From assembly GCA_947561395.2 (NCBI GenBank), contig OX387194.1, forward strand, positions 19,702,048-19,766,047: 64,000 bases of DNA, written 5' to 3'. The notes under the pieces were generated by a model. The model made no database searches. It had not been told where the DNA came from and saw only the letters and a list, made by a program, of their open reading frames with translations. Position numbers and translations under genes: made by a program. Of this stretch, positions 21,237 to 45,208 are shown in pieces (the first letter of the stretch is position 1; each line of letters starts with the position of its first letter). This DNA comes from Buxus sempervirens (lineage: Eukaryota; Streptophyta; Magnoliopsida; Buxales; Buxaceae).

Positions 21237-23036
21237 TGTGAGACATGGGAAAAAATCAAATCTAATGATTTCCTCAATCATCACACGGGATTAAATAAAA
21301 CAAAGAGTCGCCACCATTCAATCTAGGTGTGAATGGACACCAAAATATTAAATAAGCACAAAAGGCAAATTTTAGGGCAAAATATCCCTCCTAAAAAAAC
21401 AACCAGAGATGGGTAAGGGGATTAAGTTATGAACAGGGGAAGGTGTTAGGCACCCCTATTCATCCACACAAGGTGGTTGCCAGGTATTGTTCATGTTTAA
21501 AATAAAGGAAAAAGCTTGCTATAAAAATCAGGAAAAATCACAAAAAAAAGACAAAATTGTATGGTTTTTTCATATGAATAGTCTGATTGATCCAGAACTT
21601 TCAAATATGATCATACCATTCCTAGGGTTTCATGATCAAAATAAATTTGAGATAAAATCAAATAAAATCAATTTAAAGTGAAAAATCCAAAAATCTGGCT
21701 TCAAGTCAAATTCTAGAAATCTAGAAAAATATGATTTTTATAAAATATTTCAAAATTGAACTTAAATAGTCCAGGATATAGATAAAGCCCAAATTTCACA
21801 TTAAATCAGAAAATAAAAACCAAAAAGACCCACGTTGTTGAAAAACACCAAAAGGGGAGAATTTAGACCGTAGGGTCTTCTCTCAATAATGAAAAACCAC
21901 ATCATGAAACCCTTGAATTTACTTTCAGGCTTCTGGATCCAGATCTACCATATTGATCATGAAAAATCCAAGATCCTAGCCTAAAATCACAAAAATCACG
22001 AAAACAGTGCTGTAGGTGCAAAAGTGGCAAAAATCCAAATTTTGGCAAAAAGAGAGGATCTCATGCTATAAACATCATAGATTCATGTTATTCATTCAAA
22101 TATATCATAAAAAGCATTAAAACATGATCAAGATATTTAAAACAGCCACATCTCACAAATTAGAGCACATGGGGGTCTACCCTACGGATCCACCTGTTCT
22201 CTTTTCCCCTAGTTCTCTCTTCACGTTTTACGGCTAGAGAGACTCTTGAGGTACTTAGAGATGGGTTTGGTTACACAAACACAATCATAGGCCTTATTCT
22301 ATGAAAAAAACAAAAAAAACAGATATGGGGTTCTATTCTAGGGATCCACCTGTTCCCCTTTCCCCTAGTTCTCTCTTCACGTTTTACGGCTAGAGAGACC
22401 CTTGAGGTACTTAGAGACAAGTTTAGGGATACAAAAACAGATATGGCCTTATTCTACAGCAATAGAGATGATCCTATTACTTCTAGAATTGAAGACAGAA
22501 AATAAAAAGGGATAGGGGACTTACCTGGATTGAGCAGGCAGAGCAACAGGGATTCCTTTCCTTCTCTTGTAGCTTCTTAGAATTCCTTGGACTCAAAATT
22601 TCGTGGCCCTTAGCTAGAGGAGAGAGCCTCTATTTATAGACACACCCAGGGGCATGGTTGGTCCAGAAGGATATAGCCTGATTCTCAGGATAGAGTGAAA
22701 TACAGAGATAATGCCCATCCATAGTGGCTTCAGCGAATAAAATACTTAATTCGCTCGTTTAAAGATATATTGGACTTCAAATAAAGCTCGGAAATCGAGA
22801 GAAGGACCAAACTTGCACGTGTCTTTAATGCCCGTAAATGATTTACGGTCCAATGGTGACCGTATTGGTATTACGGGCGCGCCTGCCCGTAGATATTTTG
22901 CGGGCGAGATAGGCCCATGAAGCCAATACGGGCAAAGCCTGTTCATTCTATTTTTAGACCTTTTTGACCTGTTTTAAGCTCTAATTACAGGTTTTTATTA
23001 TTTTCTCATTTGGCAGTGCAATTTGGGGTGTCTACA
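21237..23036 (-). repeat. 3' LTR of T4
   Basis: TG...CA termini, with a palindrome cluster at 22830-22933, a TATA box (22630-22638), and a duplicated block of about 130 bp in U5 (about 22190-22300 and 22325-22440). It matches the 5' LTR almost base for base. Visible differences are at 21963, 22112 and 22917, plus one A in the run near 21545. Confidence 0.95.
22830..22933. repeat. Palindrome cluster in T4 3' LTR
   Basis: Four 21-bp units of the form GCCCGTA-n7-TACGGGC (with GACCGTA and GCGGGC variants) separated by short spacers. The arm motif is shared with the clusters at 23386, 27911 and 39380. Confidence 0.93.
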
Positions 23037-23050
23037 GCTGCCCCCTCTTT
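23037..23050 (-). other. Polypurine tract of T4
   Basis: The minus strand reads AAAGAGGGGGCAGC directly before the 3' LTR. This is the expected primer for plus-strand DNA synthesis. Confidence 0.85.
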
Positions 23051-23385
23051 GCTGGTAATTGGAACCAATTACAAGCAGAGAGCAAAAAGACCCGCCAATT
23101 GCACTTTCTGAGATTCTTGTATAATCAATTGCACTTTGCAAGGATTAAAGAGATGATTTTTGAAAAAAGAATTGATTGTGGAAGATTTGCTAAGAAATCC
23201 CTCAGCTTAAGGGCCAAATCTTCCTCTCTCCTCTCACTGAGCACTTGTGGGCTATGAAGTGAGATTTGAGACAAAATTTTTAAACAAAAGTGGGTAAGGT
23301 GGAAATCCTTGCAACTTGCAACTAATACAAACATTAATCTCCTAAAAATTGTGAGAAAATGACAAAATAGGTAATTTTTGGCTTC

Positions 23386-23486
23386 GCCCGCATTATGCTT
23401 ACGGACAGACCTGCCCGTAGAGGATTCACGGGCGACCGGGACCGTATGGATTTCACGGGTACCTGAAGCCCGTACTGAGTTTACGG
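23386..23486. promoter_or_regulatory. Palindrome cluster upstream of the T4 PMD gene
   Basis: Four units with GCCCGTA / TACGGGC-type arms lie just upstream of a CT-rich stretch that looks like a plant 5' UTR (from about 23500). No clear TATA box follows, so the promoter is either TATA-less or not recognised here. The cluster is the plus-strand counterpart of the LTR clusters. Confidence 0.7.
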
Positions 23487-24843
23487 ATTTTACTCTCTTC
23501 TTAAGGCCGCGAACGCGAACTTTTCCTTCTCTGCTCGCACTTCTGCCCTAGTTTCTCTGCGCCCGTATTCTCTTCTCCGGACGTCTTTCTTCTTCTTCAA
23601 CAATCCTCCGACGACCACTGTTCTCCGGCCATTCTCTCTTCTCCGGCAGCTCAAATTTCCGGCGACTGTTCCCATTTCCTCTGGTGATTTCCAAGTTCTC
23701 CGGCGACCACTGTATTCTTCAGCAACCATCGACCGTATCTCTAGTGACTTGCTCAAATTCGTTGGATCCCTTTTTTTCCAAGAGCTTGGTGGAGCAAAGG
23801 TTCGGCTACTGCTTACTTGCATTTTTTTTTTTCGATCATTCCTGGTAAGTGGCCGAAACTCATTCCTATTGCCAACAGTATATCGCAAGCGACCATATGA
23901 TTGAACTTGCTTGACTCATGCATGAATTTTGCTTTTGCTCGAAAAAAATAATCTCTAATGCACATGTTACATATATTCCAAGATCATTCATTTGTTCCCA
24001 AATTTCTGAATTCTTCATAGCTTGACATTTGATTTGTATTCTGATAACTTCCACTTCATGTTTGATCCATGATTGCATCTTTCAGCCTTTGAGATGATAA
24101 ATGCTTAGTCTGTGATGTTTGCTAAATTATTGACTTTGGTTTATCACTTGTATGCTTGCATCAGATTTGTGATTCCTCTTTACCACTGTTAAATTGAGCT
24201 CTTTTATGACTTATGTTGCTCCAATTTTTCTGCCAATGCTCCATTGGAAGTTAGACCTTTGAATCCTCAAATTTTCACTGCCTTGTTGACCTGGAGCAAT
24301 CATATTTTTATTGGTGCTGTATTTGGCATGCTAGCAGACTTTTGTATGTTCAAGTTCCACTTATAGGTTATTGCTTGAAACTTTGCCTTGACCATGAACT
24401 GCTAGATAATTGCCCATTCATGCTTTTTAGAAAATTGGTCTTGCTTTCATCTAATTCGATCCTTCCTCCAATTGATAACCATGATAGATTTCTGAATCTA
24501 TAACTGAATAAGCCTAAACTTAAAGAGTATTGATATTATCACGATCTCAACTTAAATAGGCTTGAAATTTTAGCCTGAAACCAAACAAAAAAGAGATGAT
24601 TAAAATCAACCTTTAGCACATTCATATAAGAAGCCTACACTTCATATATATAAATTTTATATATTTTCTTGATTAAAGCAAAGACTAAATAAATATCACA
24701 ATAAGCCTTATTCAAACAGAAAATTAAAATCTTTTTCTTCCGTCCTCCATTTTCTTTCCTGCAAATCAATTAATCTTGGTTAAAATTAAGCAATAAAAAT
24801 TTGCACAAGAAATAATTAACCAACTCCCTGCTTTGAACCATAG
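23487..24843 (+). other. 5' UTR exon and first intron of the T4 PMD gene
   Basis: A CT-rich exon of about 350 bp containing several CCGGCGAC-like stretches ends at a good donor, CTG/GTAAGT (about 23845). The acceptor CATAG abuts the start codon at 24844, giving a 1-kb 5' UTR intron. The old T3 copy keeps the same arrangement, with a CTG/GTTAGT donor at 44840. Long 5' UTR introns of this kind are typical of expressed plant genes. Confidence 0.6.
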
Positions 24844-27696
24844 ATGGCCCGTCTTCGATCAGCTTCTAGGGATCCAGCAGATGAGCCTTCCTCTTCTAGG
24901 GTTAGGCGAGATCCTGCTGATGTGGCCACTTCTTCGAGGGCTGAGAGGGATTCTGATTCTGATATCCCAGATTTCCCTTCTGGGGATTCGCGTGAGGCGA
25001 CCCCAGAGGTATACTCTAACCTTTTTGCAATTTCCTATCCTTTCCCAAAATACATCTTCCTGATTCTTCAATTATTTTCTTTTAGCCGGCTGTTGAGGCT
25101 TCTGGCAGAGATAGGAGCCGTAGCAGACGCAGAGCTGGAGGCAGAGATGGAGGCCATGATGAGGGCCATAGGGGAGGCCGCAGAGGGGGCCGTGGCAGAG
25201 ATGAGGTCAGGACCAGGGTTGAGATCCCTGAGGAGGTGGCTGCCCAGATTAGGGACACCGATCTTCTGCATGGTTTGAGGACTCATCCCTCGGCGTGCGT
25301 TAGGGCGGATATCCCTTTGGAGTATCCGATGTCCCACTATAGAGGGAGCTGGGCCAGCTTTACTAAATTTTTGAGAGCTTGCAGTTCGGCCTATCGTCGG
25401 GAGCTAGGATTGTACGGTTTCGGCATGTTTATCACTATCCCGGACGTACGCTTAGATCGAGCCCTCATTGCAGCATTATTGGAGAGGTTTTTCCCAGAGA
25501 CCTTGAGCTTCCACTTTCCAGATATTGAGATTGGGATCCGGCCTTTTGATTTCACGCTCATCACCGGGATTAGGATGATCGGTGATGTTATTACTGAGAT
25601 GGCGATGCCAGAGGCTGAGGAGATCGCTGGTTATCTTGGATACATTGTGCTGCCTCCTGAGGCATGGGATCGGGGGAGAGCTAGATTGTCTCTGACATGG
25701 TTGACAGAGACTTTCAGGAGGAGGCAGTTTGGCCAGCTTGCTGCCGGTGACCATGTTTTCCCATTTGCCTTCCGATTCCTCTTTCTATATATGATGGGAT
25801 CCTGCTTCTTCCCAGAGGACACGACTTCAGTTAGTCCTTACTTCTTGAGTCTTCTGGGAGATCTGCAGCGGGCGAGGAGGTATGCCTGGGGCCCGCTCAT
25901 ATTTGGTACTATTCTGGCTGGCCTGCGCCGATCAGTGAGCGGCCTCTCTACATCCAGAGGGGCTGGAGTTGGGTGTAGGTTCTTCTGGCCCTTCTTGCAG
26001 GTGAACCTTATTCCTCTTCTTTTTCTTTATCTCTTTCTTTTTATCACTTATTTTATATTCTTCTGACTATTTTCTTCTTTCTTGCAGTTTTTTGCTAGGG
26101 TTTATATACCCTATTTCCGCCCTACCTCTACGATGCCTGAGGAGACGTATCCCATGGCACTTAGATGGTGTCATGTAGAGCATGACTCTGAAAAGAGTCG
26201 TCCCAGGTCCGCCCGAGCCCACTTAGACAGGTTATACCGGTCTGAGGTAATCTTCTTTAATTTCTCTACTTTCTTCTTTTCTTTTCTTCCTGGATCGCAT
26301 ATCTGATGTCTTGTTCTGTTTTTCAGCTATTTGTCCCCAGGATGGAGGACATTCATGAGGTGCTAGCCCTGCAGGCAGCCAGAGATGATGCATTTGTCCC
26401 TGACCAGAGACGACAGAGATACCAGTTCTTTATTGGTCAGTTGGGCAGCATCTGGTATTGTGGCGAGCGCTTCTTCTTTCAGCATGTGGGAGAGCCACGG
26501 ATTCCTGCCATCCCGCCAGATACTACTCCTCTCTATCCTCCTATGCCTGTTGATCCTGCCCAGTTCTTAGATTGGACTGAGGCAGAGACATTATTGGAGG
26601 AGGGTGACTATGATGCATGGTTCAGGCGATCTTCTGTTGGGTGCCTCATGTCACCCATGCCTGTCCGTGGCGGAGTCACGGAGATAGGAGGGGTAGTGAT
26701 TAGGGCCTACGACACCACGGTATGCTTTCTTCTTTTGTGATCTTCTATTTCTATTTCATCTGCTTTTAGCATTTTTCTGACTTCTTTCTTCTCTATTTCA
26801 GGAGGCTCAGTTGGCAGAGATCAGGTCTCGCTATGCTGATCTAGAGCGCCAGCGTGATGCAGCGATCGCGGAGCGGGACGCCCTCTATATCACTATTTCC
26901 GATCTCCGGGGGCAGCTAGCCAGAGCCCAGGGCCAGGAGGGTCCATCTGATGCACAGGACCAGGCGGGTCCGTCTGATACTCAGGTTAATTTCTTCTTTT
27001 ATTTCCATTCCTGCTTTTGTATTTGTTTGTCTTGTTCTGACTGAATTTTTCTCTTAGTTTCAGGAGTACATGGCTGGTCCCTCTTCACTTGCTTCACCCG
27101 TGCCTATGCATTTCCGGGATGAGGTGTTTTCTGTGGCACGGGTGGAGTTCGTGACATCTCCTAGTCCAGTGGAGGTTCCTGTAGCAGAGCCTGAGGTCGA
27201 GGCTGATATCGTACCTGCTGCTACTGATGTGCCAGAGTCTACCCCAGTAGCTGAGACGGCTCCTGCTGCATCTACTGATGTTGATATGGATTCGGCTATG
27301 GACGCCGCTGTGGTAGAGCCTACCGTGGAGACTGCGGTGATGGCGGAGGCTACAGCTGATCCTGTAGAGCCTGGGGTTGATGCTGATGTACCTGAGACCT
27401 CTGCCCCTGCTAGTCCTACTATGGAGGATATCGAGGAGACGCATGCTGCTGTGGATACGTCCGAGGAGTCTTCCCGTACTGATTCTGATGTAGATACTTC
27501 AGGGTATGTCCCTCCTGATCATCCCACTGCTGGCCTTGTACCTTTATATATGTGGCATGATGTTCAATCTGTTTTGAGCAGGATGCCGCGTAGCACAGCC
27601 CGCAATGTGGTGCGGCATGTCTTTGAGCGCAGGCGATCTTCAGGCAGAGGACGAAGCCGTGGCCGTAGGAGCGGACCTGCATGGCCATTAGATTAG
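24844..27696 (+). CDS. Plant mobile domain (PMD/MAIN-like) protein gene, antisense in T4
   Basis: The ATG directly follows an acceptor. Coding exons read by eye are 24844-25008, 25086-26000, 26088-26246, 26327-26719, 26802-26984 and 27064-27696. Every exon is a multiple of three with GT-AG introns, giving about 815 aa. Order: a Ser/Asp-rich N-terminus; an Arg/Gly/Ser-rich stretch (about residues 58-95); a PMD core (about 110-540), recognisable from LLHGLRTHP, SFHFPDIEIGIRPFDFTLITG and WGPLIFGTIL; a coiled coil (about 545-590, DLERQRDAAIAERDA); an acidic Ala/Val/Glu-rich region; and a basic tail (RRRSSGRGRSRGRRSG) that could be a nuclear signal. Host PMD proteins MAIN and MAIL1 are nuclear and affect gene and TE expression, and PMD genes are known to occur inside plant TEs. 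A role in helping the element is an inference. The gene is antisense to gag-pol. Confidence 0.85.
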
Positions 27697-27910
27697 GATT
27701 CTTCCATGTACCTTTGTATTTTTTGGCAAAAGTGATGTAAACATTCATGTATATAAAAGAAGTTTGATTTATTTCCATTTGTGTTCTTTCTTCTTTATTT
27801 ATAGTATTTATTACCTCATGAATGTTAAACAGGGACATGTGAAGCTTAGGGAAACAAAGGAAATTAAAAGTTCCCATTTTTTTGCATTTTTTCGAAGGAA
27901 CAGTATTTAT
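27697..27910 (+). other. 3' end of the PMD gene and spacer
   Basis: AT-rich 3' UTR-like sequence after the PMD stop, with GTATTTTTTGG- and TGTAAACATT-like stretches. No gene is seen. The T3 copy conserves this stretch at about 12830-13030. Confidence 0.55.
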
Positions 27911-28060
27911 ACTACGAGCAAGCCGTGCCCGTAAAATTACTACGGGCGTACCTTGCCCGTGAATTTTCTACGGTCAGGCGTGTCCGTAATGTCTATACGG
28001 GCGAGCCTTGCCCGTAATATAATTACGGAATTTACTGCCTTGCGATTTTTTCTATATAAA
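27911..28060 (+). promoter_or_regulatory. Promoter of the DUF7745-like gene: palindrome cluster plus TATA box
   Basis: Four to five GCCCGTA / TACGGGC units (27911-28028) are followed 25 bp later by TATATAAA at 28053-28060. The start codon is at 28152, so a transcript start near 28085 gives a short leader. This is the clearest case of a cluster abutting a core promoter. Confidence 0.8.
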
Positions 28061-28151
28061 CTCCTAGGGAACGTCATTGTGACACTTTTATTGATTGGAA
28101 AACTCCCTGAGCACGTCTTTTCTCGCTTTCCTTGGCTTCTTTGGCGCTTCC

Positions 28152-29948
28152 ATGGCTTCCCCTACGCCGCTTTCTCCTGCCGTTGAATCTCCTCCTGCAA
28201 GACAACCTGTTAGATCAAAACCTCCTAATCTTACCAGGTACAATATTGTGGATTCCTTTTATGATAGATGGGTTAACTCCATGACCCTTGATGAGGAGAT
28301 TCGTTGGGGTTCCATCCACTTAGGGCACATCCTACACCTCCCTAAAATTCCCTTTAAGTGGGAAATCATTGAAGCTTTGATAGGCCATTGGGTACCTGAG
28401 CTGAATCTCTTCCGTTTTGATGATAAAGAGATGACTCCTACCATAGAAGAGATTGAAACCATCCTTGGCCTTAGATTTTCTGAAAAAGTTGTGAACCCAC
28501 CCCTAAAGCTTAGTTATAAAAAGGAGGCTTCCACTTTCTTGGGTATAGGGAAGAAGGACTTAGGAAATTCTGATGCACTATTGACCTTGTCCAAGACCTT
28601 TTTGACTGAAAAACTTCTGAGGAGTAATGACAAGGACTCTAGGTTTAATGCATTGACCCTAATAGTGGTCAATCAGCTGTTTTTTCCACGGGGTGATGAC
28701 CAGGTTGACTTGGCTCTCATCTCAGTTATCTGTCAGGTTAGGGAACGCGAGAGGTTGGCCCCTATGATCCTAGCAGAGATATATCAGGCTCTTACTGATT
28801 GTTATTTCAGGAAGAAGAAACGCTTCCTTGCCTGCGCCCCTATCCTACAGGTAAAATATGCATGTATTTTTTTTCTATTTTTTTTTCTATTCTTCCTTTC
28901 CTTTCTTTCTTCTCTTTTTTTTTTTTTCTTTTCTTCTTCTTCTCTTTTTTCTTTCTTCTTTTCTTTTTTTTTTTCCTTTTCTTTTTTTTTTTTCTTCTTT
29001 TTTTTTTTTTTTTTTCTTTTTGGAAATAAATTGAAATACTCCCTTTTCTTGCAGCTTTGGTTGCTTGACCATCTTAGCCAGGTTGAAGAAATAACTCGCC
29101 GCTTCTTTCCAAGATTGAAAGTTCCTGTTCTGATGAGCAATAGGGGATGTCCTAACATCCAAGGTGGTAAGCAAGGCTGGTTCACTTTCTTGGGTACTCT
29201 CCAGGATGATCAAGTGAGATGGCCTGGCACTTATCAGCCCACTCCAGAGACAGTGATCAGCTTTAGAGATAAAAACTTTCTGGTCCTAGCAGGCTTGAAA
29301 TCTGCTGTTCTCTATCTTCCTTTGAGGGTTCTTCGGCAATTTGGAGCGACCCAGGGAATCATGATTCCCACAGGTTATGAGAGCTTTATAGGGCCACTTA
29401 CTTCAGCCACCATGGGGCTAAATGCTCAATTAATGAAAGAGTGGTCCTATGTTTGCTTTCTGCGGGGTCCAGTCTTTTCTGAGTCCCATGTGAAGGACTA
29501 TCACTTCTGGATCAAGGAACAGGTGCAGAGTCATGCCCCAGTACCAGAGGATCCTCCTGCAGTTCTTCCTCCTACTTATGAGGACATTCTGGAGTCAGAA
29601 AGGGCAACTCATAAGCGGCTTCAACAAATATGGGTACGGGAGGCTCAAGAACTTAGGATAAAAGTCCTTGTTCTGGAGAGGCAGCTTGAAGAGCAGAAGT
29701 CTGGCCGCATTGCCATGGAGAAGAAACTTGAAGAACAAAGGCAGGCTCGTCGCTTTGAAGTCCGTGTGATGCAGAAGAAGTATCAGGATTCCTTGGCTGA
29801 CCTTAGGGCGTTGAAGATCAAGCTTTCTTTTTCAGATGAGGTCATCTCCTTTTTGAGTGATCCTGATGCAGAGGGTGCTTCTGGAATCATTGCAACTCAG
29901 GCAGCTAAGATTAGGGAGCTTGAGGAGCAGTTAGGGAGTAGGGATTAG
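28152..29948 (+). CDS. DUF7745-like coiled-coil protein gene, antisense in T4
   Basis: The ATG at 28152 is the first after the inferred transcript start; an open frame extends further upstream only from a non-ATG codon. Exon 1 is 28152-28850, the intron 28851-29054 (GTAAAA...TTGCAG, very T-rich), exon 2 29055-29948, for about 530 aa. The N-terminus is Pro/Ser-rich. Residues of about 40-330 resemble the plant DUF7745 family, judged from the RWGSIHLGHIL and MTPTIEEIETILGLRF segments. About 440-530 is a charged heptad-like coiled coil rich in LEEQ and MEKKLEEQR. DUF7745 has no known biochemical role that I can cite; the family assignment is from recognition, not a search. No transmembrane segments are apparent outside the intron-derived Phe run. 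The gene is convergent with pol. Confidence 0.7.
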   Translation: MASPTPLSPAVESPPARQPVRSKPPNLTRYNIVDSFYDRWVNSMTLDEEIRWGSIHLGHILHLPKIPFKWEIIEALIGHWVPELNLFRFDDKEMTPTIEEIETILGLRFSEKVVNPPLKLSYKKEASTFLGIGKKDLGNSDALLTLSKTFLTEKLLRSNDKDSRFNALTLIVVNQLFFPRGDDQVDLALISVICQVRERERLAPMILAEIYQALTDCYFRKKKRFLACAPILQVKYACIFFLFFFLFFLSFLSSLFFFFFSSSSLFSFFFSFFFSFSFFFFFFFFFFFLFGNKLKYSLFLQLWLLDHLSQVEEITRRFFPRLKVPVLMSNRGCPNIQGGKQGWFTFLGTLQDDQVRWPGTYQPTPETVISFRDKNFLVLAGLKSAVLYLPLRVLRQFGATQGIMIPTGYESFIGPLTSATMGLNAQLMKEWSYVCFLRGPVFSESHVKDYHFWIKEQVQSHAPVPEDPPAVLPPTYEDILESERATHKRLQQIWVREAQELRIKVLVLERQLEEQKSGRIAMEKKLEEQRQARRFEVRVMQKKYQDSLADLRALKIKLSFSDEVISFLSDPDAEGASGIIATQAAKIRELEEQLGSRD

Positions 29949-30933: not shown

Positions 30934-33900
30934 TCATGGAAAATATCTCTTTACTGCATCAGAGTTAATTGGCTCAGGAAAATCCTTTCCATCCATTTCT
31001 GTTAAGATGAGAGCACCCCCTGATAGAACTTTCTTGACCACATAAGGTCCTTCCCAATTTGGTTTAAACTTTCCACGAGGATCTTCCAAAAAGGGTAAAA
31101 TCTTCTTTAATACCAAATTTCCTTCTTGGAAAGTTCTGGGCTTCACCTTTTTATTGTAAGCCCTAGCCATCCTCTTCCGATATATTTGGCCATGACTAAG
31201 TGCCTTCAAACGCTTTTCTTCAATTAAATTGAGTTGATCATGTCTAGACTGTATCCATTCAGCTTCTTCTAATTCTGCTTCCATTAGCACTCTTAGTGAA
31301 GGTATTTCCACTTCCACTGGTAAAACTGCTTCCATTCCATAGACTAAGGAGTATGGGGTCGCTCCTGTAGAAGTCCGAATTGAGGTTCTGTAAGCATGTA
31401 GAGCAAGTGGCAGCATTTCATGCCAATCTTTAAAACTCACTACCATCTTTTGAATAATCTTCTTTATATTCTTATTGGCTGCTTCCACTGCCCCATTCAT
31501 CTTTGGTCTGTAAGGCGCTGACTTGTGGTGGGTAATCTGAAATTGTTCACACATCTTCCTCATGTCTTTGTTCTTAAGGTTTGAAGCATTGTCTGTTACT
31601 ATGGCACTTGGCAAACCATAGCGGCAAATGATGTTATGCTTCAAAAACTTAAGAACATGGCTACTTGTAATGTTTGCATAAGAAGCCGCTTCTACCCACT
31701 TGGTAAAGTAATCAATTGCTACGAGTATAAATCTATGTCCATTTGATGCCTTTGGAGAGATCATTCCAATGACATCTATACCCCACATAGAAAAAGGCCA
31801 CGGAGATGTCATACTGTGTAATTCACTTGGGGGTGCATGCTTGTTATCCGCGTACACTTGGCATAAATGACACCTTTTAACGTGCATATAGCAATCATGC
31901 TCCATAGTCGACCAGTAATATCCCAATCGCAGAATCTTCTTGGCAAGCATATGCCCATTCATATGGGGTCCACACACTCCTCCATGTACGGTTTCAACTA
32001 TCCTTTCTGACTCAGTTTTTGCAACACATCTAAGTAGTATATCATTGTGTGATCTTTTGTACAACTGCCCACCACTTAGTAAGAACTGTCCTGCCAGCCT
32101 CTGTATTGTTCTTTTCTCTGTAGAGGTGACATTTTCTGGTAAGCTCCGATCATTTAGGAAGTTCTTAATGTTTTGAAACCATGGTACTTCTTCTTCTGGG
32201 GTTTCTTCTAAAACAAGGCAGTAAGCTGGTTCGTCTCTGACTTCAATTTCCAATGGTCTAATATCAACCCCTTCTGGCATATTGACCATTGAAGCCAATG
32301 TTGCTAGAGCATCTGCAAACTGGTTTTTGGCCCTTGGCATATAATTGAAGGAAATTCGAGTAAATTTATTGCTTATTTCTTCCAAATACTGGTGATAGGG
32401 GATCAATTTGTGATCCTTGGTTTTCCATTCACCAGTTGTTTGGAAGATGATAAGACTCGAATCTCCATATACGTCAAGTTCCTCTACTTCATGATCTAAG
32501 GCTGCTTGTAACCCAATTATGCATGCTTCATACTCTGCTATATTGTTCGTGCATTGGAACCTTAACTTCACTGCGATTGGGATATGTGCCCCATCTGGCT
32601 TGATCAGAACAGCCCCTATTCCATTTCCATTCATATTGGCGGCCCCATCAAAAAACATCTGCCATGAGCTCTCACCTTCTTCCTCTTCAGCAAACAGGAT
32701 TGCCTCATCAGGGAAGTTGGTCTTTAAGGGTTGGTATTCTGGTAAAGGGTGTGCGGCTAAGTGATCTGCAATAGCTTGACCCTTAATGGCCTTCTGTGTG
32801 ATATAGGTGAGGTCAAATTCAGAGAGTAACAACTGCCACTTTGCTGTTCTGCCAGTTAAAGCTGGTTTCTCAAATAGATACTTCAAAGGGTCCATGCGGG
32901 ATATCAATAAGGTGGAATGACTAAGGAAATAGTGCCTTAGTCTCTGAGTTGCCCATACTAAAGCACAACAAGTCTTTTCCAAAGGTGAATACTTTGCTTC
33001 ATATTCTGTAAATTTCTTACTCAGGTAGTAAATCGCCCTCTCCTTTCTGCCTGTATCGTCATGCTGTCCTAAGACACACCCCATTGATGTCTCCAAAACA
33101 GACAAGTATAGGATTAGTGGCCTTCCTGGAGTTGGTGGTACTAGCACAGGTGGGTTTAATAAGTATTCCTTTATTGTGTCAAAGGCTTCTTGGCACTCAT
33201 CATTCCAGACTGTCGGGTTATTCTTTCTTAAAAGTTTGAAAATTGGTTCACAGATAGCGGTGAGCTGTGCTATGAACCGGCTTATGTACTGAATCCTTCC
33301 AAGAAAGCCCCGAACCTCCCTCTCGGTTCTAGGTGATGGCATTTCAATGATGGCTTTAGCTTTAGCTGGGTCAATCTCAATTCCTCTTCTGCTTACTATA
33401 AAACCCAATAATTTTCCTGATGTAGCCCCAAAGACACACTTAGCAGGGTTCAGCCTTAGACTGTATTTCCTAAGCCGATCAAATACCTTCTTCAAGTTGA
33501 TCAAGTGGTCTTCTTCTTCGCATGATTTGGCTATCATATCATCCACATAAACCTCCATCTCCTTATGGATCATATCATGGAATAAGGCTGTCATGGCCCT
33601 CTGGTAGGTTGCCCCAGCATTCTTAAGTCCAAATGGCATGACAGTGTAGTGGAAGGTACCCCAAGGGGTGATAAAGGCTGTCTTCTCTTGGTCTTCCTTA
33701 GCCATCTTAATCTGATTATACCCAGAAAACCCATCCATGAATGAGAATAGACTATGTACAGCGGTGTTATCCACCAGGATGTCTATGTGTGGAAGTGGAA
33801 AATCATCCTTTGGACTTGCCTTATTCAAATCTCTATAATCTACGCACATTCTGACTTTCCCATCCTTCTTTGGCACTGGCACTATATTTGCAAGCCATTC

Positions 33901-34560
33901 GGGGTATGTGGAAACTGCTAAGAATCCGGCTTGGAATTGTTTAACCACTTCATCTTTAACCTTCAATGTCCACTCAGGTTTTAACCTTCTCAGTTTCTGC
34001 TTAACTGGCTTAGAGTCTGGTAGAATGGGTAGCCTGTGCACCACCATATCTGTGTCTAACCCCGGCATATCCCGATACGACCATGCAAACACATCTTCAT
34101 AATCAGCCAAAAATCGTATCATTTCATCCCGCTGTACCTCAGATAGACATACCCCAATCTTTACTATTTTTGGGTCCTCTTCGGTCCCTAGGTTGATTGA
34201 TATGGTCTCTTCAATATTGGGTTGGACCCCCTTTTCATGACGCTCTAATTGATATGTGATTTCTTTTGGAACGTCGTCTTCTTCGTCCTCGGTCTCTTCT
34301 TCAACCCCCATTAGGTCAAAGTCGAGCTCAAGGTCGAAGTCATACTCATCCTGATCCAATTCCGTTTGCTTATATGGTTCATAAATGGTTTGGACCTTTT
34401 TGAAAAATTTATCTTTTCTAGAAAAAACTGAAAACTCTTTTTGTGTTTTTTGAGAGCCTTCTACAAAATCTTTCCCTGAAGACGAAGGCTCCTTAAAACC
34501 TTCAGGAAAAGGGCATTCCACTAATGGAGTTTTTTTTTGGAAGCCATGTCTGTTTGCCAA
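30934..34560 (-). CDS. pol: T4 pol: reverse transcriptase, two RNase H domains, integrase
   Basis: An open frame of 1208 codons without its own ATG at the 5' end (the first codon is TTG). It overlaps the gag-protease frame by 40 bp and is probably made as a fusion. In order: linker; RT (about 190-375) with LPHIDILVD and the catalytic YVDD near 335; a connection RNase H (about 455-590) whose usual TDAS and TDH aspartates are replaced (LETS, SRMD); a second RNase H (about 630-760) with intact FFDGAA, AEYEA, GDSS and ADALA; the integrase HHCC zinc site (about 865-905); the DDE core with D in GIDVIG, D in VTDNAS and E in GAVEAANK; and a C-terminal GPY-type module. The dual RNase H is a hallmark of Tat elements. 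No stop or frameshift is seen. Genes on the plus strand below it are convergent. Confidence 0.95.
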   Translation of the reverse strand: MANRHGFQKKTPLVECPFPEGFKEPSSSGKDFVEGSQKTQKEFSVFSRKDKFFKKVQTIYEPYKQTELDQDEYDFDLELDFDLMGVEEETEDEEDDVPKEITYQLERHEKGVQPNIEETISINLGTEEDPKIVKIGVCLSEVQRDEMIRFLADYEDVFAWSYRDMPGLDTDMVVHRLPILPDSKPVKQKLRRLKPEWTLKVKDEVVKQFQAGFLAVSTYPEWLANIVPVPKKDGKVRMCVDYRDLNKASPKDDFPLPHIDILVDNTAVHSLFSFMDGFSGYNQIKMAKEDQEKTAFITPWGTFHYTVMPFGLKNAGATYQRAMTALFHDMIHKEMEVYVDDMIAKSCEEEDHLINLKKVFDRLRKYSLRLNPAKCVFGATSGKLLGFIVSRRGIEIDPAKAKAIIEMPSPRTEREVRGFLGRIQYISRFIAQLTAICEPIFKLLRKNNPTVWNDECQEAFDTIKEYLLNPPVLVPPTPGRPLILYLSVLETSMGCVLGQHDDTGRKERAIYYLSKKFTEYEAKYSPLEKTCCALVWATQRLRHYFLSHSTLLISRMDPLKYLFEKPALTGRTAKWQLLLSEFDLTYITQKAIKGQAIADHLAAHPLPEYQPLKTNFPDEAILFAEEEEGESSWQMFFDGAANMNGNGIGAVLIKPDGAHIPIAVKLRFQCTNNIAEYEACIIGLQAALDHEVEELDVYGDSSLIIFQTTGEWKTKDHKLIPYHQYLEEISNKFTRISFNYMPRAKNQFADALATLASMVNMPEGVDIRPLEIEVRDEPAYCLVLEETPEEEVPWFQNIKNFLNDRSLPENVTSTEKRTIQRLAGQFLLSGGQLYKRSHNDILLRCVAKTESERIVETVHGGVCGPHMNGHMLAKKILRLGYYWSTMEHDCYMHVKRCHLCQVYADNKHAPPSELHSMTSPWPFSMWGIDVIGMISPKASNGHRFILVAIDYFTKWVEAASYANITSSHVLKFLKHNIICRYGLPSAIVTDNASNLKNKDMRKMCEQFQITHHKSAPYRPKMNGAVEAANKNIKKIIQKMVVSFKDWHEMLPLALHAYRTSIRTSTGATPYSLVYGMEAVLPVEVEIPSLRVLMEAELEEAEWIQSRHDQLNLIEEKRLKALSHGQIYRKRMARAYNKKVKPRTFQEGNLVLKKILPFLEDPRGKFKPNWEGPYVVKKVLSGGALILTEMDGKDFPEPINSDAVKRYFP

Positions 34561-37500
34561 ACAAACGCGGCTTCAAAAGTAAGGGGAGTTTCCTCCCAAT
34601 TATTCAGAATAAAAGAATCTGGGGCAGGGATACAAGCCTGCTCCTCAAGCTCAGGGTCTGCATCAGAGATCACCAGTACTGGGTGCGTTGCATCGCCTGT
34701 TTCTTCGGTAGGGCTAGTTCCAGATGGAACTTCTACTGTAGCCCAGTCAATAAAAGGTAGCTCCTCTGCTACTTTTTCTTGGTTGCCTTCTGTCATGGCA
34801 AAGAATGCCCCTACTTCCTCATAAGAGTCCTGCTCCTGTTTGGCTTGTGGCCCAGGCCCACCAGATGCTTGTGGAGGTGGAACACATGGCTGTATTGTGG
34901 AGGGTTTAGGTTTCTGGAATGGGTTGACATTGTAGTATGGGGGTTTGGCCTGATCCTCAGGAGGAGACAGCTGAATCATGTGAGACAGCTTAGGAAAAGT
35001 TTCCCTGATGTGCGGGAATTTCATAGCTTCTGTCTGCCCCTGTCTTCTCCATTTCCTTGGCTTGGACCCCAATCCTGCCCTATGAACCATCTTCTTAACC
35101 TGAACTGGTTCTATCCTTCCTTGTAGGTTAATCCCCAGACCTTTGCCAGGGTGAAAATGGTACTTTTCTAATACATTTTTGACCATTTTTTCAGCACAGG
35201 TCAATTTTCCTTCTTTTTGTTGATACCCCCCAGGTATATAATTCACAGCTTCAAACTGAAAAGAGTGAAATGCCATCTTATCTGCTGTCATTTCCGTGTT
35301 AATACAGGGTACATCAGGGGACCACATGGGGGGAACCAAATTTTCGGCCAGGACGGTAATCACCTTTTGCCCTCTAATATACTTGACTCTTTGGTGGAGG
35401 GTAGATGGTATGGCCCTAGCTGTATGAATCCACGGCCTTCCTAGGAGTAGGTTGAAAGCCGCAGGTATATCCATCACTTCAAATGTGATGTTGAAAATAT
35501 ACGGTCCAATTGTGACCGGCAGTTCAACCTCCCCTAGGGAGTGTGTCTTAGAGCTGTCAAATGCTCTTATAATTCTTCCATTTTGTTTTATTTTGTTTCG
35601 CTCCAGATTGAGCTTAACAAAGGTTACTAAAGGGCAGACATTGAGGGCTGACCCATTATCAATCAAGACCCGGGCTATCATGCAGCCCTTACTGAGCACA
35701 GCAATGTGCAATGGATCCACATGATGGTATCCTGCTGGACTAATTTCAGTTTCAGAAAAGGTTATGACATTATGGGATAATATTTGACCAACCATCCGGC
35801 CTAGTTGGTCTGGTTCAATGTTTTTAGGCACATGGGCCCCCTGAAGTATCCTTAACAAGGAGTCCCTATGTTTTTCTGAATTTAACAATAATCCCAGAAT
35901 TGAGATCTGGGCAGGGACCTTATTCAACTGCTCAATGACATTGAACTCACTCTTTTTTATTACCTTAATGAGGTCAGCAGCCTCACTGTTAGTTACCTGA
36001 GGGGCCTCTTCCCCTACTTTGGCCTTGCCTTTATTTCTTTCTTCTTCTTTATCCTTCTCTGTTTCTTTCTGTTTTTCTTCCACCCCTACACACTTTCTTG
36101 ACCTCATCATGAGATTTACTTCTTCCTTGCTTTCAACTGCAGGGCATGTAGTGGTAAATGCCTCACTGTAGTTCCATGGTACAGCCGATTCAGAGTAGGA
36201 AGGCTTGGGGACATTCACCACCAATGGGGGAAGTTTGGGCTTGGCGATGGAAGTCTGAGTAATAGGAACATTAACAACCAATGGAGGTAGTTGTTTTGGT
36301 TGAGGGGTTGCAAAAGGGACTGATGCACAATTTATGACCAATGGTGGCTTAGACTGAATGGGTGGAGTGAAAGTGGATGGATTATAATTAATGACCAAAG
36401 GTGGCTTGGCGATGTTCATTTGGGCCATGAGGGATGAGACCCGGTCCAAAGATGAGCTAATGTTCTTTGCAGCACTATCATTCCCCTTTGAAATCATGTT
36501 TATTTCTTTGCCTTCACTTCTCCTGTCAAAATATACTTTGACCGTTGTCCCTATGGGAGCAATTAATTGAGATGGGTCAAAGGTTATTTTGTCAGAAGAG
36601 ATGACTCCTATGACATTAGATGGGCCTGCCCCGTGATGTTGGGGCAGTGGGTTTTGTCCAATATCTGTTCTTGGAGGATTGGAAGCCCCTGTATTGAAAG
36701 ACAGGGTATTCTGGTCTAGTAAATCCTGAATGGCATGTTTCAAAGGCCAGCACTTGTCTGTAGGGTGCCCAGGTGCACCCATATGGTAATCACAAGTGGT
36801 GGAGGGGTCAAAATTTCTCCCCTTAGATGCATTCGGATTAGGTTCTCTTAAGGTGATATACCCTCCTTGCAATAAAGTGGGCAGCAATTGAGAGGGAGTC
36901 ATTGGAATAGGGGTGAAAACCCTATTTCTCCTTGCTGCAAAATAGGCGTCCTTTTCCTCCTTGGTAAAAACCCTTTTTTGGTCTGAAGATGCTGCTGGAA
37001 CATTAACCCTCATAGGGGCCTGGGTAGGTGGAGATGGAGTAGGAAAATGAGCAGGTACGTTGATTTGTATGGGCTTGTTAGGGCCGGATGGTGGCTGTAC
37101 CATGTTTACCTCACCCTCCTTCTTGTTCCCATTCTTTTTTGTCCCGCTTCCTTTCTTTAGGTTGGGGTCCTGCTGGCTAACCATGGCAGAGTGGTCAATT
37201 ATCTTACCTGACCTTATTCCATCCTCAATTCGGTCAGCCACCTGAACCAAAGCTGCAAAATTAGTGGTGGTCTGACCCACCAAGTGACTGTAGAATGGTT
37301 GACCCAAAGTGCTTATGAAAGTAGAAATCATTTCCTGTTCTAGCATGGGTGGCCTGACCTGAGAAGCTGTCTCCCTCCACCTCTTGGCATATTGCCTTAC
37401 AGTCTCTTCCCTTCCTTTGCTCATTCTCATGACGTCGTACCTATCTGGCATGATCTCTGAATTGAACCGGTATTGAGCCAGGAAGGCATCGGCTAGGTCC

Positions 37501-38135
37501 TTCCATCTTTTGATCTTTCCATGGTCCAGAGTGGCGAACCATCTTAATGCGGTTCCAGTCAGGCTCCTTTGGAAAAGTTGGATTAGAACACCTTCATCCT
37601 GCCCAAACTGGCATAGGGCACCACAGTATAACTTTAGATGGCTCATGGGGCAACCAGTGCCATCATACTTGTCCAAGTCTGGGCACTTAAACTTAGCCGG
37701 CAGGTTAACATTGGGGTATAGGCACAGGTCTTCAAAATTGGTGCCTCCAAAGTTGTTTACCCCTTTGACTGCCCTAAGTTCATCTTGGATCAATTCTAGC
37801 TTATGCATGAACTTTCTTTCAACCTCTTCCCTTATCCTTTCCTTTTCCTTAGCCTTGTTTGATTCAGCTGTCTCATCTCTGGTCAGTATAGGTTCAGGGG
37901 TGGGTTCATAGACGGGTTCAGGAGTTGGTTGCACTGGAGGTGGAACATTGACTTGGGGTGGAGGTGCAGGGTTGGATGCGGATGCCTGGTTCTGGGCCTG
38001 CATTTGTTGGGCCTGCACTTGTTGGGCCTGTACTGACAGTATGTTTTCTAGCATTCGGGCTAGTCCTGCCACTTGTTCTTGGAGTAGAACGACATCTGGA
38101 TGAGGAGCATCAACTTCATCTTCAATGGGGTTCAT
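34521..38135 (-). CDS. gag: T4 gag-protease polyprotein
   Basis: About 1204 aa from the ATG at 38135, the Met in the APVTRSRARAM stretch conserved in T1; the frame is open upstream but only from a TTG. A Gln/Pro-rich N-terminus and charged coil lead to the Retrotrans_gag core (about 155-285; LKLYCGALCQFG, QYAKRWRE, LGQPFYSHLVG). A knuckle near 450, CDYHMGAPGHPTDKC, has His in place of the usual second Cys. After Pro-rich repeats comes the aspartic protease (about 815-905; IDNGSALN and LGRPWIH), then a glycine-patch-like stretch near 1000 (GKGLGINLQGR). The stop at 34521 follows a run of nine A (34530-34538), where the ribosome or reverse transcriptase could change frame into pol. Compared with T1 and T2 it has no internal stops. 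Confidence 0.95.
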   Translation of the reverse strand: MNPIEDEVDAPHPDVVLLQEQVAGLARMLENILSVQAQQVQAQQMQAQNQASASNPAPPPQVNVPPPVQPTPEPVYEPTPEPILTRDETAESNKAKEKERIREEVERKFMHKLELIQDELRAVKGVNNFGGTNFEDLCLYPNVNLPAKFKCPDLDKYDGTGCPMSHLKLYCGALCQFGQDEGVLIQLFQRSLTGTALRWFATLDHGKIKRWKDLADAFLAQYRFNSEIMPDRYDVMRMSKGREETVRQYAKRWRETASQVRPPMLEQEMISTFISTLGQPFYSHLVGQTTTNFAALVQVADRIEDGIRSGKIIDHSAMVSQQDPNLKKGSGTKKNGNKKEGEVNMVQPPSGPNKPIQINVPAHFPTPSPPTQAPMRVNVPAASSDQKRVFTKEEKDAYFAARRNRVFTPIPMTPSQLLPTLLQGGYITLREPNPNASKGRNFDPSTTCDYHMGAPGHPTDKCWPLKHAIQDLLDQNTLSFNTGASNPPRTDIGQNPLPQHHGAGPSNVIGVISSDKITFDPSQLIAPIGTTVKVYFDRRSEGKEINMISKGNDSAAKNISSSLDRVSSLMAQMNIAKPPLVINYNPSTFTPPIQSKPPLVINCASVPFATPQPKQLPPLVVNVPITQTSIAKPKLPPLVVNVPKPSYSESAVPWNYSEAFTTTCPAVESKEEVNLMMRSRKCVGVEEKQKETEKDKEEERNKGKAKVGEEAPQVTNSEAADLIKVIKKSEFNVIEQLNKVPAQISILGLLLNSEKHRDSLLRILQGAHVPKNIEPDQLGRMVGQILSHNVITFSETEISPAGYHHVDPLHIAVLSKGCMIARVLIDNGSALNVCPLVTFVKLNLERNKIKQNGRIIRAFDSSKTHSLGEVELPVTIGPYIFNITFEVMDIPAAFNLLLGRPWIHTARAIPSTLHQRVKYIRGQKVITVLAENLVPPMWSPDVPCINTEMTADKMAFHSFQFEAVNYIPGGYQQKEGKLTCAEKMVKNVLEKYHFHPGKGLGINLQGRIEPVQVKKMVHRAGLGSKPRKWRRQGQTEAMKFPHIRETFPKLSHMIQLSPPEDQAKPPYYNVNPFQKPKPSTIQPCVPPPQASGGPGPQAKQEQDSYEEVGAFFAMTEGNQEKVAEELPFIDWATVEVPSGTSPTEETGDATHPVLVISDADPELEEQACIPAPDSFILNNWEETPLTFEAAFVWQTDMASKKKLH
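34530..34538 (-). promoter_or_regulatory. Putative -1 frameshift site (A9) between gag-protease and pol
   Basis: Minus-strand TTCC, nine A, then CTCC. In the gag frame three Lys codons precede CTC CAT TAG. Slipping back one base after AAA gives ACT CCA TTA GTG, which is the pol frame. Ten A would make the two frames continuous, so a recent one-base loss is the alternative. Confidence 0.6.
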
Positions 38136-38188
38136 GGCTCGAGCTCTTGATCTGGTTACAGGAGCTATGATTGCAAGTGTGTTAGTAC

Positions 38189-38190
38189 CT
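38189..38190 (-). promoter_or_regulatory. Putative leader splice acceptor upstream of gag
   Basis: The minus strand reads TTTCTCGCCAG followed by GTACTAAC, about 55 bp before the gag ATG. T1 has a comparable CACAG/GTAG junction. It pairs with a strong donor in the LTR (42065). Confidence 0.5.
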
Positions 38191-38414
38191 GGCGAGAAAT
38201 AAAGATAAAATATCAGTGCCAATTTAATCTCCTTCACATGCCTAAGAATGCCTATGTGCAAGCTGGGTGAACACGAGTTTGGATATTTTTTTTATTTGCT
38301 TCTTTTTTTTTTTTTTTTTTTATTTTTTATTTATTTATTTATTTATTTTTTTTTATTTTGAATTGAATTGTTGGAATATTCTAGGGCTTCCAACAGGTCC
38401 CACAAAAGAGAGAA

Positions 38415-39206
38415 AGGTCTGAAATTCAAAGGCTTTCAGAGGTCCGGGGGGTTTTTTTTTTTTTTTTGAAAAAGGTCTGAAATTCAAAGGCTTTCAGAGG
38501 CCCAGGTTTTTTTTTTTTTTTTTTTTTTAAAAAAGTCTGAAATTCAAAGGCTTTCAGAGGCCCAAAAGTTCTGAAATTCAAAGGCTTTCAGAGGCCCAGA
38601 AGGAAAAGGTCTGAAATTCAAAGGCTTTCAGAGGCCCAAAAGTTCTGAAATTCAAAGGCTTTCAGAGGCCCAAAAGAAAAAGGACTGAAATTCAAAGGCT
38701 TTCAGAGGCCCAAAAGTTCTGAAATTCAAAGGCTTTCAGAGGCCCAAAAGGAAAAGGTCTGAAATTCAAAGGCTTTCAGAGGCCCAAAAGTTCTGAAATT
38801 CAAAGGCTTTCAGAGGCCCAAAAGAAAAAGGTCTGAAATTCAAAGGCTTTCAGAGGCCCAAAAGAAAAAGGTCTGAAATTCAAAGGCTTTCAGAGGCCCA
38901 AAAGTTCTGAAATTCAAAGGCTTTCAGAGGCCCAGGGATTTTTGAGAAAAAGTCTGAAATTCAAAGGCTTTCAGAGGCCCAGGGATTTTTTGAGAAAAAG
39001 TCTGAAATTCAAAGGCTTTCAGAGGCCCAGGGATTTTTGAGAAAAAGTCTGAAATTCGAAGGCTTTCAGAGGCCCAGGGATTTTTGAGAAAAAGTCTGAA
39101 ATTCAAAGGCTTTCAGAGGCCCAGGGATTTTTGAGAAAAATCTGAAATTCAAAGGCTTTCAGAGGCCCAAGAGTTTTGAAAAAGTCTGAAATTCAAAGGC
39201 TTTCAG
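38415..39206 (-). repeat. Leader tandem hairpin array of T4 (19 units)
   Basis: Nineteen copies of a 27-base core beginning TCTGAAATTCAAAGGC and closed by TTTCAGAGGCCC. The spacers alternate between AAAAGT and longer A-rich or GGGATTTTT forms. Each core can fold: 7-bp TCTGAAA/TTTCAGA stem, 9-base loop. Only one core base differs among most copies. Open frames across it (38924-39106) are repeat artefacts. Confidence 0.95.
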
Positions 39207-39379
39207 AAGCCTTTCTCTCACATTTTTTTCTTTTAAATATTTTTTTTTTTGTTTTTTTTTTGTTTTCTTTTTTTTTTTTTTGAAGCATTTTATTCAAACT
39301 TGTTTCCCTTTATCATTATTTAAAGGTTAAAAGAATATTTTAGTGGGAAAAACTGATTAAAGTTGAATATTCCGAGAAA
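39207..39379 (-). other. T-rich spacer in T4 leader
   Basis: Homopolymer-rich, non-coding sequence between the hairpin array and the leader palindrome cluster. Confidence 0.6.
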
Positions 39380-39511
39380 ACCGTATATACAGTACGGTCC
39401 AGCCTTGCCCGTATTTAAATTACGAGCCTGCCGTGACCGTAGGCAGTCCACGGGCGAGCCTAGCCCGTATAAACAATACGGGCAAGCCCAGCCCGTGTAT
39501 TAAATGCGGTT
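39380..39511. repeat. Palindrome cluster in T4 leader (5 units)
   Basis: Five 20-21-bp units with the T4 arm type (ACCGTA / TACGGTC, GCCCGTA / TACGGGC). T1 has a cluster at the same leader position with its own arms. Confidence 0.9.
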
Positions 39512-40756: not shown

Positions 40757-40774
40757 TCCCCAGCAGAGTCGCCA
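40757..40774 (-). promoter_or_regulatory. Primer binding site of T4
   Basis: The minus strand reads TGGCGACTCTGCTGGGGA two bases after the LTR end. It is complementary to a tRNA ending in GTCGCCA. Tat/Ogre elements are usually assigned tRNA-Arg; not verified here. Confidence 0.85.
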
Positions 40775-40843
40775 GTTGTGAGACATGGGAAAAAATCAAA
40801 TCTAATGATTTCCTCAATCATCACACGGGATTAAATAAAACAA

Positions 40844-40853
40844 AGAGTCGCCA
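40844..40853 (-). promoter_or_regulatory. PBS-like TGGCGACTCT motif inside U5
   Basis: The first ten bases of the PBS recur here, 67 bp inside the LTR end. The same motif is in every LTR of the family seen in this window: near 4335, 20680, 21306, 49782, 50075 (one mismatch) and 51865. Confidence 0.8.
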
Positions 40854-42060
40854 CCATTCAATCTAGGTGTGAATGGACACCAAAATATTAAATAAGCACA
40901 AAAGGCAAATTTTAGGGCAAAATATCCCTCCTAAAAAAACAACCAGAGATGGGTAAGGGGATTAAGTTATGAACAGGGGAAGGTGTTAGGCACCCCTATT
41001 CATCCACACAAGGTGGTTGCCAGGTATTGTTCATGTTTAAAATAAAGGAAAAAGCTTGCTATAAAAATCAGGAAAAATCACAAAAAAAAAGACAAAATTG
41101 TATGGTTTTTTCATATGAATAGTCTGATTGATCCAGAACTTTCAAATATGATCATACCATTCCTAGGGTTTCATGATCAAAATAAATTTGAGATAAAATC
41201 AAATAAAATCAATTTAAAGTGAAAAATCCAAAAATCTGGCTTCAAGTCAAATTCTAGAAATCTAGAAAAATATGATTTTTATAAAATATTTCAAAATTGA
41301 ACTTAAATAGTCCAGGATATAGATAAAGCCCAAATTTCACATTAAATCAGAAAATAAAAACCAAAAAGACCCACGTTGTTGAAAAACACCAAAAGGGGAG
41401 AATTTAGACCGTAGGGTCTTCTCTCAATAATGAAAAACCACATCATGAAACCCTTGAATTTACTTTCAGGCTTCTGGATCCAGATCTACCATATTGATCA
41501 TGATAAATCCAAGATCCTAGCCTAAAATCACAAAAATCACGAAAACAGTGCTGTAGGTGCAAAAGTGGCAAAAATCCAAATTTTGGCAAAAAGAGAGGAT
41601 CTCATGCTATAAACATCATAGATTCATGTTATTCATTCAAATATATCATAAAAAGCACTAAAACATGATCAAGATATTTAAAACAGCCACATCTCACAAA
41701 TTAGAGCACATGGGGGTCTACCCTACGGATCCACCTGTTCTCTTTTCCCCTAGTTCTCTCTTCACGTTTTACGGCTAGAGAGACTCTTGAGGTACTTAGA
41801 GATGGGTTTGGTTACACAAACACAATCATAGGCCTTATTCTATGAAAAAAACAAAAAAAACAGATATGGGGTTCTATTCTAGGGATCCACCTGTTCCCCT
41901 TTCCCCTAGTTCTCTCTTCACGTTTTACGGCTAGAGAGACCCTTGAGGTACTTAGAGACAAGTTTAGGGATACAAAAACAGATATGGCCTTATTCTACAG
42001 CAATAGAGATGATCCTATTACTTCTAGAATTGAAGACAGAAAATAAAAAGGGATAGGGGA

Positions 42061-42066
42061 CTTACC
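42061..42066 (-). promoter_or_regulatory. Splice donor in T4 5' LTR
   Basis: The minus strand reads ATCCAG/GTAAGT, about 105 bp after the TATA box. Equivalent sites are conserved in the T1 (about 6055), T3 (46014) and S4 (47905) LTRs. Confidence 0.7.
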
Positions 42067-42170
42067 TGGATTGAGCAGGCAGAGCAACAGGGATTCCTTT
42101 CCTTCTCTTGTAGCTTCTTAGAATTCCTTGGACTCAAAATTTCGTGGCCCTTAGCTAGAGGAGAGAGCCT

Positions 42171-42179
42171 CTATTTATA
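42171..42179 (-). promoter_or_regulatory. TATA box of T4 5' LTR promoter
   Basis: The minus strand reads TATAAATAG, about 190 bp downstream of the palindrome cluster. It is preceded by GTGTC and followed by a CT-rich leader. Confidence 0.8.
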
Positions 42180-42370
42180 GACACACCCAGGGGCATGGTT
42201 GGTCCAGAAGGATATAGCCTGATTCTCAGGATAGAGTGAAATACAGAGATAATGCCCATCCATAGTGGCTTCAGCGAATAAAATACTTAATTCGCTCGTT
42301 TAAAGATATATTGGACTTCAAATAAAGCTCGGAAATCGAGAGAAGGACCAAACTTGCACGTGTCTTTAAT

Positions 42371-42474
42371 GCCCGTAAATGATTTACGGTCCAATGGTGA
42401 CCGTATTGGTATTACGGGCGCGCCTGCCCGTAGATATTTTGCGGGCGAGATAGGCCCGTGAAGCCAATACGGGC
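42371..42474. repeat. Palindrome cluster in T4 5' LTR
   Basis: Four 21-bp GCCCGTA-n7-TACGGGC units, the same as in the 3' LTR except for one base at about 42457. Confidence 0.93.
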
Positions 42475-42582
42475 AAAGCCTGTTCATTCTATTTTTAGAC
42501 CTTTTTGACCTGTTTTAAGCTCTAATTACAGGTTTTTATTATTTTCTCATTTGGCAGTGCAATTTGGGGTGTCTACAGTAGG

Positions 42583-45143: not shown

Positions 45144-45208
45144 CTTATCCAACAAAGTATTTCAGATACAAAGAAGGGCTTACATATCCAAACAAATATT
45201 TCGGATAC
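45144..45208. repeat. Palindromes upstream of the T3 PMD gene
   Basis: Two units with TATCC / GGATA-type arms (TATTTCAGATA and TATTTCGGATA ends). It occupies the position of the T4 23386-23486 cluster but has T3-type arms. Confidence 0.7.

Follow-up and report, generated by a model that had tools for sequence, protein, structure and literature searches.

Element-specific arrays of CCG-N11-CGG dyads in a Ty3 retrotransposon of Buxus sempervirens as candidate sites of a self-encoded PMD-superfamily protein

The T4 element and its palindrome clusters

The window, a stretch of 64,000 nucleotides from Buxus sempervirens (assembly GCA_947561395.2, contig OX387194.1, positions 19,702,048 to 19,766,047, forward strand), was analyzed for the palindrome clusters of T4, a Ty3 long terminal repeat (LTR) retrotransposon on the minus strand (21237-42577). 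Its 5′ LTR (40777..42577, minus strand) and 3′ LTR (21237..23036, minus strand) are 99.7% identical. Domain matches placed gag, with a G-patch, at 34524..38291, and pol, with reverse transcriptase, RNase H, RVT_3 and integrase, at 30937..34572, both on the minus strand. The region between pol and the 3′ LTR holds two plus-strand genes, antisense to gag and pol. The first, with introns (24844..27693, exon layout read by eye), encodes a plant mobile domain (PMD; 25086-26063, PF10536, E 9.1e-17) and a weak coiled-coil-like piece (26781-27041, E 0.096-0.1). The second is a DUF7745-like open frame (28095..29945; PF24924, E 9.2e-25), which itself matches PMD (PF10536, E 1.8e-15) and for which an intron was inferred by eye at ~28850-29054.

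In the pol frame, RVT_3 (residues 641-759) follows RNase H and precedes integrase, the arrangement described for Tat/Ogre elements (PMC6317226). A PMD extra open reading frame (ORF) is likewise common in Ogre, being present in 57% of the Ogre elements of that survey. By its domain content T4 would fit the Tat lineage, on account of the extra RNase H-like domain, and would be Ogre-like because this domain is combined with PMD.

Palindromic units with the arms GCCCGTA-n7-TACGGGC (type A) were recovered, with their coordinates, from the five places in T4 named by the initial annotation, a model's reading of the letters alone. The clusters, all unstranded, comprise four units in the 5′ LTR (42371..42474; units at 42371, 42399, 42426 and 42454), four in the 3′ LTR (22830..22933; 22830, 22858, 22885 and 22913), four upstream of the PMD gene (23386..23488; 23386, 23413, 23440 and 23468), four upstream of the DUF7745-like gene (27927..28030; 27927, 27955, 27982 and 28010) and five in the leader (39379..39511; units 39379-39491). 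A TATA-like box on the minus strand (42179) lies ~190 bp past the 5′ LTR cluster, the distance first reported. The DUF-upstream cluster does lie near such a box (28053, ~22 bp past the last unit); its position had been given as 27911, and the units begin at 27927. A decayed fifth unit near 27899, made out by eye through comparison with the outermost unit that relatives have, probably explains the earlier figure. The leader cluster sits at no proven promoter.

A shared core within element-specific arms

Two further elements of the window, T1 and T3, carry clusters with other arms, and these arms are as initially described. T1 has GTATCCGGTA arms in its leader (2752..2892, unstranded, 38/39-bp period) and LTR (6337..6477, unstranded). 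T3 has GTATCCGAAAT arms, with a 39-bp period, upstream of a DUF fragment (cluster 12662..12803, unstranded; fragment 12481-12299, minus strand). Two clusters with GTATCCGAAAT-like arms (45145-45208 and 45607-45748, together 45145..45748, unstranded) would belong to T3 as well, judging by order, orientation and arms. Units of T4 are 21 bp long with a 27/28-bp period, those of T1 and T3 are 25 bp long with a period of ~39 bp, and both contain CCG-N11-CGG. The claim that arms differ between elements therefore holds for the letters around the core; the core itself is common to all and had been overlooked.

CCG-N11-CGG occurs 44 times in the window and forms 10 clusters (at least 3 sites within 130 bp). 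In 100 shuffles of the window a mean of 1.5 sites was found (maximum 6), with 0 clusters. Other CCG/CGG spacings from 5 to 19 occurred 1 to 8 times each in the window, none of them clustered. Across the 676-Mb genome, GCCCGTA-N{1,25}-TACGGGC was counted 11,311 times (reversed control, 73), and the spacer was N7, equivalent to CCG-N11-CGG, in 11,266 of these 11,311 (N7 control, 0). GTATCCG-N{1,25}-CGGATAC was counted 30,939 times (reversed control, 34); among the plus-strand matches listed, 49 of 51 had a spacer of N11, and the other 2 (N24) bridged adjacent units. The fixed half-site spacing expected of an array of dimer sites was thus present in both window and genome. CGG-N11-CCG, the site of fungal Gal4, is similar but of opposite polarity, and the resemblance was not used.

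Upstream sites were then read at DUF7745 genes. Out of 5,751 candidate places 118 were scored, and 80 of these were read in addition to T4; locus L046, for which a DUF alignment was not obtained, was kept outside the counts. Genes were classed as T4-type (at least 0.71 identity to T4 exon 1, T4 included) or distant (0.43 or less). At least one exact CCG-N11-CGG was present in the 320-420 bp upstream of all 51 T4-type genes, and at least two in 46 of the 51, so that the absence of clusters, which the initial annotation had named as an outcome against it, was not seen at the DUF promoter. In the upstream stretch read, none of the 29 distant genes had a site. T4-type and distant genes are two clades, and the comparison therefore counts as one evolutionary difference, not 80. 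The distant class (L005-L007, L009-L015, L017-L022, L024-L026, L028-L034), at ~40% identity to T4 exon 1 and lacking dyad arrays, has many intact frames of ~498 residues.

DUF-upstream arms fell into types A (GCCCGTA, with an A-like variant A′ in L056 that has TGCGGGC), B (AACCG(C/T)A), C (G(T/A)CCGCA, L041), D (GTATCCGAYA, L047), E (GTATCCGGCA, L048), F (AACCGAAA, L050) and G (GTATCCGAAAT, T3). At L091, an A-type DUF gene (0.89), the upstream units resemble by eye the PMD-upstream cluster of T4 and not its DUF-upstream cluster; its promoter has perhaps been changed.

Agreement of arms within an element was measured on 21 clusters of seven elements (T1, T3, T4, L044, L039, L041 and L048), using letters outside the CCG core only. 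Similarity was 0.915 within and 0.619 between elements, which 0 of 20,000 label shuffles reached, and the nearest neighbor was of the same arm family for 21/21 clusters. Clusters at different positions of one element agreed at 0.915 (23 pairs), those sharing a position but belonging to different families at 0.592 (42 pairs). T3 is split by nested elements, and the arms themselves had helped to join its parts, a circular step; once T3 was omitted, the values were 0.912 and 0.607 (0/20,000), and for the four fetched elements alone, with no element of the window, 0.907 and 0.577 (0/5,000). L047, L049, L050, L052 and L056, whose upstream part is disrupted or unclear, were left out of the main test. 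When all of these but L052 were added as they stand, similarity was 0.869 within and 0.626 between (0/20,000); L052 offered no upstream cluster for comparison and stayed out of both tests. The ‘PMD-upstream’ sites of L048 span 0.8 kb, and a unit of the LTR may be among them. On the far side of pol, leader clusters have their element's own arms, E in L048 and B in L039, where integrase identity to T4 is 91% and 93%, respectively. The statement that arms are alike across distant clusters of one element and unlike between element types was borne out by these values; arms varying freely within an element were not seen, L050 aside. A second E-type cluster, at L110, has a reversed LTR-like match nearby and could be part of a different insertion.

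Arm distances were compared with protein distances. Across 15 elements, arm distance correlated with DUF exon-1 distance at 0.92 and with integrase distance at 0.65; the partial values were 0.89 for DUF given integrase (p 0.0001) and -0.43 for integrase given DUF. Across 51 genes the arms-DUF correlation was 0.93. Among seven elements without T3, correlations were 0.92 for PMD and 0.75 for DUF, with partial values of 0.88 for PMD given DUF (6/5,040) and 0.56 for DUF given PMD (140/5,040). For the six elements with integrase, values were 0.94 (PMD), 0.84 (DUF), 0.62 (integrase) and 0.79 (DUF given PMD); integrase was not found for L041 and L050. With T3 added, whose DUF piece has only 61 residues, the eight elements gave 0.85 (PMD), 0.51 (DUF) and -0.18 (DUF given PMD). 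L056 entered with only 89 PMD residues. In L048, DUF was nearest to type A (0.81), and PMD (0.71) and arms (0.81) were nearest to T3. The antisense proteins therefore track the arms better than integrase does in these small samples, as the initial annotation had anticipated. It had named both proteins as candidate binders; the arms follow both, with PMD the better fit over six to eight elements.

Candidate function of the arrays

The clusters of 3-5 CCG-N11-CGG dyads found in the LTR, in the leader and upstream of each antisense gene are predicted to be protein-binding arrays. The reading we favor, with moderate confidence, is that an element-encoded and probably dimeric PMD-superfamily protein binds them and controls its own promoters, positively or against silencing. 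The binder would more likely be the PMD protein than the DUF7745-like one, or perhaps both jointly. Each subunit would read one half-site, made up of CCG and a few letters flanking it on each side, and these flanking letters would give each element type a private specificity. Such a protein would switch on, or shield from silencing, its own gene, the sister gene and the LTR promoter, giving a positive loop limited to its own kind of element. A self-encoded private binder would explain cluster agreement, common geometry and covariation together, and suggests that each element type carries its own switch protein plus matching sites. The longest confident part of the otherwise poor DUF7745-like fold model, a C-terminal helix (495-579), and the coiled-coil-like match of the PMD gene would suit a dimer. 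More tentatively, the plant mobile domain, as a dimer on CCG-N11-CGG, may be an Ogre-type self-encoded anti-silencing switch whose specificity for the letters around the core has radiated into about seven private codes in one genome, each serving only its own kin. A molecular function would then be assigned to a domain that, in its host members, silences transposable elements.

Regular dyads beside TATA-like boxes resemble ordinary enhancer sites, and the arrays could instead be sites of host transcription factors with a CCG-N11-CGG preference, the element types having adapted to different host paralogues and the common core reflecting one host protein family. This appears unlikely, in that identical private arms at every cluster of an element would not be expected, nor would arms that covary, beyond integrase, with the PMD and DUF of their own element, and that two types of site have ~11,000 and ~31,000 matches in one genome. 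A self-encoded PMD-superfamily binder acting as a repressor, which limits transcription of its own kind as copy-number control, would draw on the same site and covariation evidence as the favored activator or anti-silencing protein, and in the host the PMD proteins MAIN and MAIL1 take part in silencing (PMC5418596). A high-copy family whose sites are conserved would fit activation slightly better, and repression is regarded as improbable to a similar degree as host factors.

That the arrays are a functionless by-product of tandem duplication or cluster copying is very improbable, although their 28- or 39-bp periods are regular and the arms and spacers of the B family go some way toward equal divergence. 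Units of different T4 clusters share 81.5% of arm letters and 29.0% of spacer letters. In L039 the period is 39 bp at the PMD cluster and mostly 28 at the DUF cluster, despite equal arms. Across 26 A-family DUF promoters (L091 excluded), diversity was 0.075 at arms vs. 0.269 in spacers and linkers (0/20,000), and at CpGs it was 0.06-0.07 within arms and 0.318 elsewhere. Hairpins or cruciforms of RNA or DNA, serving packaging, dimerization or transcription, are as remote an explanation: each unit is an inverted repeat whose 7-bp arms enclose a 7-nt loop, but pairing alone needs no identical arm letters across distant clusters, and the compensatory changes that would keep arms paired were not in evidence among 37 distinct A units, with 51 one-sided arm deviations, 2 compensated and 4 two-sided but different, vs. 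a mean of 4.6 compensated with shuffled partners (at least 2 in 9,680/10,000 shuffles). Such one-sided deviations make the units resemble two half-sites, each recognized by a protein, and not stems.

Several observations weigh against a self-encoded activating binder or qualify the initial annotation. A TATA-like box was searched for directly after the T4 PMD cluster and none was found, no PMD-upstream cluster was found in L041, and L052 had no LTR or PMD-upstream cluster within the stretch fetched; the initial wording that every promoter carries a cluster was thus too strong. Two of eleven elements are discordant upstream: L049, whose upstream clusters sit next to an inserted LTR-like stretch and match its own DUF cluster at 0.47 and 0.53, and L050 (0.60 and 0.65), where no nested element was identified. 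In 20 B-family promoters, diversity at arms (0.086) vs. the remainder (0.125) did not differ significantly (1,502/20,000), and arm CpGs (0.11-0.13) were no calmer than linkers (0.104). Both fold models were poor (mean predicted local distance difference test scores of 47.7 and 44.6), and the search for relatives of solved structure gave none for the DUF7745-like frame and, for the PMD piece, a single weak match (E 0.39). The correlations come from small samples of related elements and provide a ranking, not proof. Part of the arms-DUF correlation is linkage, because the DUF-upstream arms adjoin the DUF gene; linkage as the sole cause is disfavored by the leader clusters beyond pol (two elements only). 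Finally, sites before a regulator's own genes fit activation or repression alike.

Judged by analogy, the closest known analogue in behavior is the VANC/VANDAL system of Arabidopsis, in which binding and demethylation by VANC anti-silencing proteins were shown experimentally (PMC5735166, PMC10398659). There, too, short motifs specific to an element family cluster in non-coding parts (PMC5735166), and a quickly changing accessory protein, private to its own kind, stands beside a more conserved transposition enzyme. Both features have counterparts here: element-specific motif arrays lie in non-coding regions, and protein and motif change together with the transposition enzyme more conserved (in a small, related sample). 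VANDALs, however, are Mutator-like DNA transposons and T4 is an LTR retrotransposon; VANC motifs are arrayed in one orientation, whereas those described here are inverted dyads; and VANC proteins carry DUF1985, whereas the proteins here are of PMD/DUF7745 type and their sites are known from sequence alone. With E values up to 5 allowed, DUF1985 (PF09331) matched none of 32 DUF7745-type proteins and none of 4 PMD pieces, and membership of, or homology to, the VANC family was therefore rejected.

As for plant retrotransposons, the part of PMC6317226 available describes no binding-site arrays and no second DUF7745-like gene, and asks whether such extra ORFs are functional at all. Retand elements with antisense Transposase_28 ORFs likewise have family-specific tandem repeats; the domain is another one, and no binding site or promoter dyad array is named in the accessible portion of that report (PMC11963269). 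PMD clades PMD-A1 and PMD-A2 are encoded by Gypsy elements, and PMD captured by Mutator-like elements (MULEs) has been speculated to be used for anti-silencing; MAIN and MAIL1 share the PMD superfamily with the T4 proteins but are host silencing factors (PMC5418596). No description of dyad sites of this kind was found among the open-licence PMC papers listed, as far as their texts were accessible. What antisense ORFs do in plant LTR retrotransposons, and what the plant mobile domain does, are posed as open questions in the portions of that literature available, and both now have a concrete candidate DNA site. If the favored reading is true, VANC-like self-recognition would no longer be confined to DNA transposons but would also occur in LTR retrotransposons, where it would use a different protein family and a different design of site.

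Further arrays in the window and genome

Other unstranded clusters of the window include one with GTATCCGATA arms (47489..47637) and A-type clusters in the LTR of a neighbor (43563..43667) and in another neighboring LTR (53402..53505). A further array, of inverted GTTGCAAA/TTTGCAAC repeats, lies at 53984-54577. The T4 leader also holds a long tandem array (38413-39211) of a TCTGAAA...TTTCAGA unit, an imperfect palindrome of a type other than CCG-N11-CGG, and a related stretch lies at 11948-12316. The N-terminal DUF fragment of T3 runs into leader-type repeats and gag (11829-10117, minus strand), and 10117-12803 is a composite or fused element. Elsewhere in the genome (G000:C1:3409377-4254934), four pairs of GTATCCGG clusters were observed with 20.1-20.7 kb between pair members, each pair having an interior cluster 4.7-5.7 kb from one member; by their positions alone these look like whole related elements.

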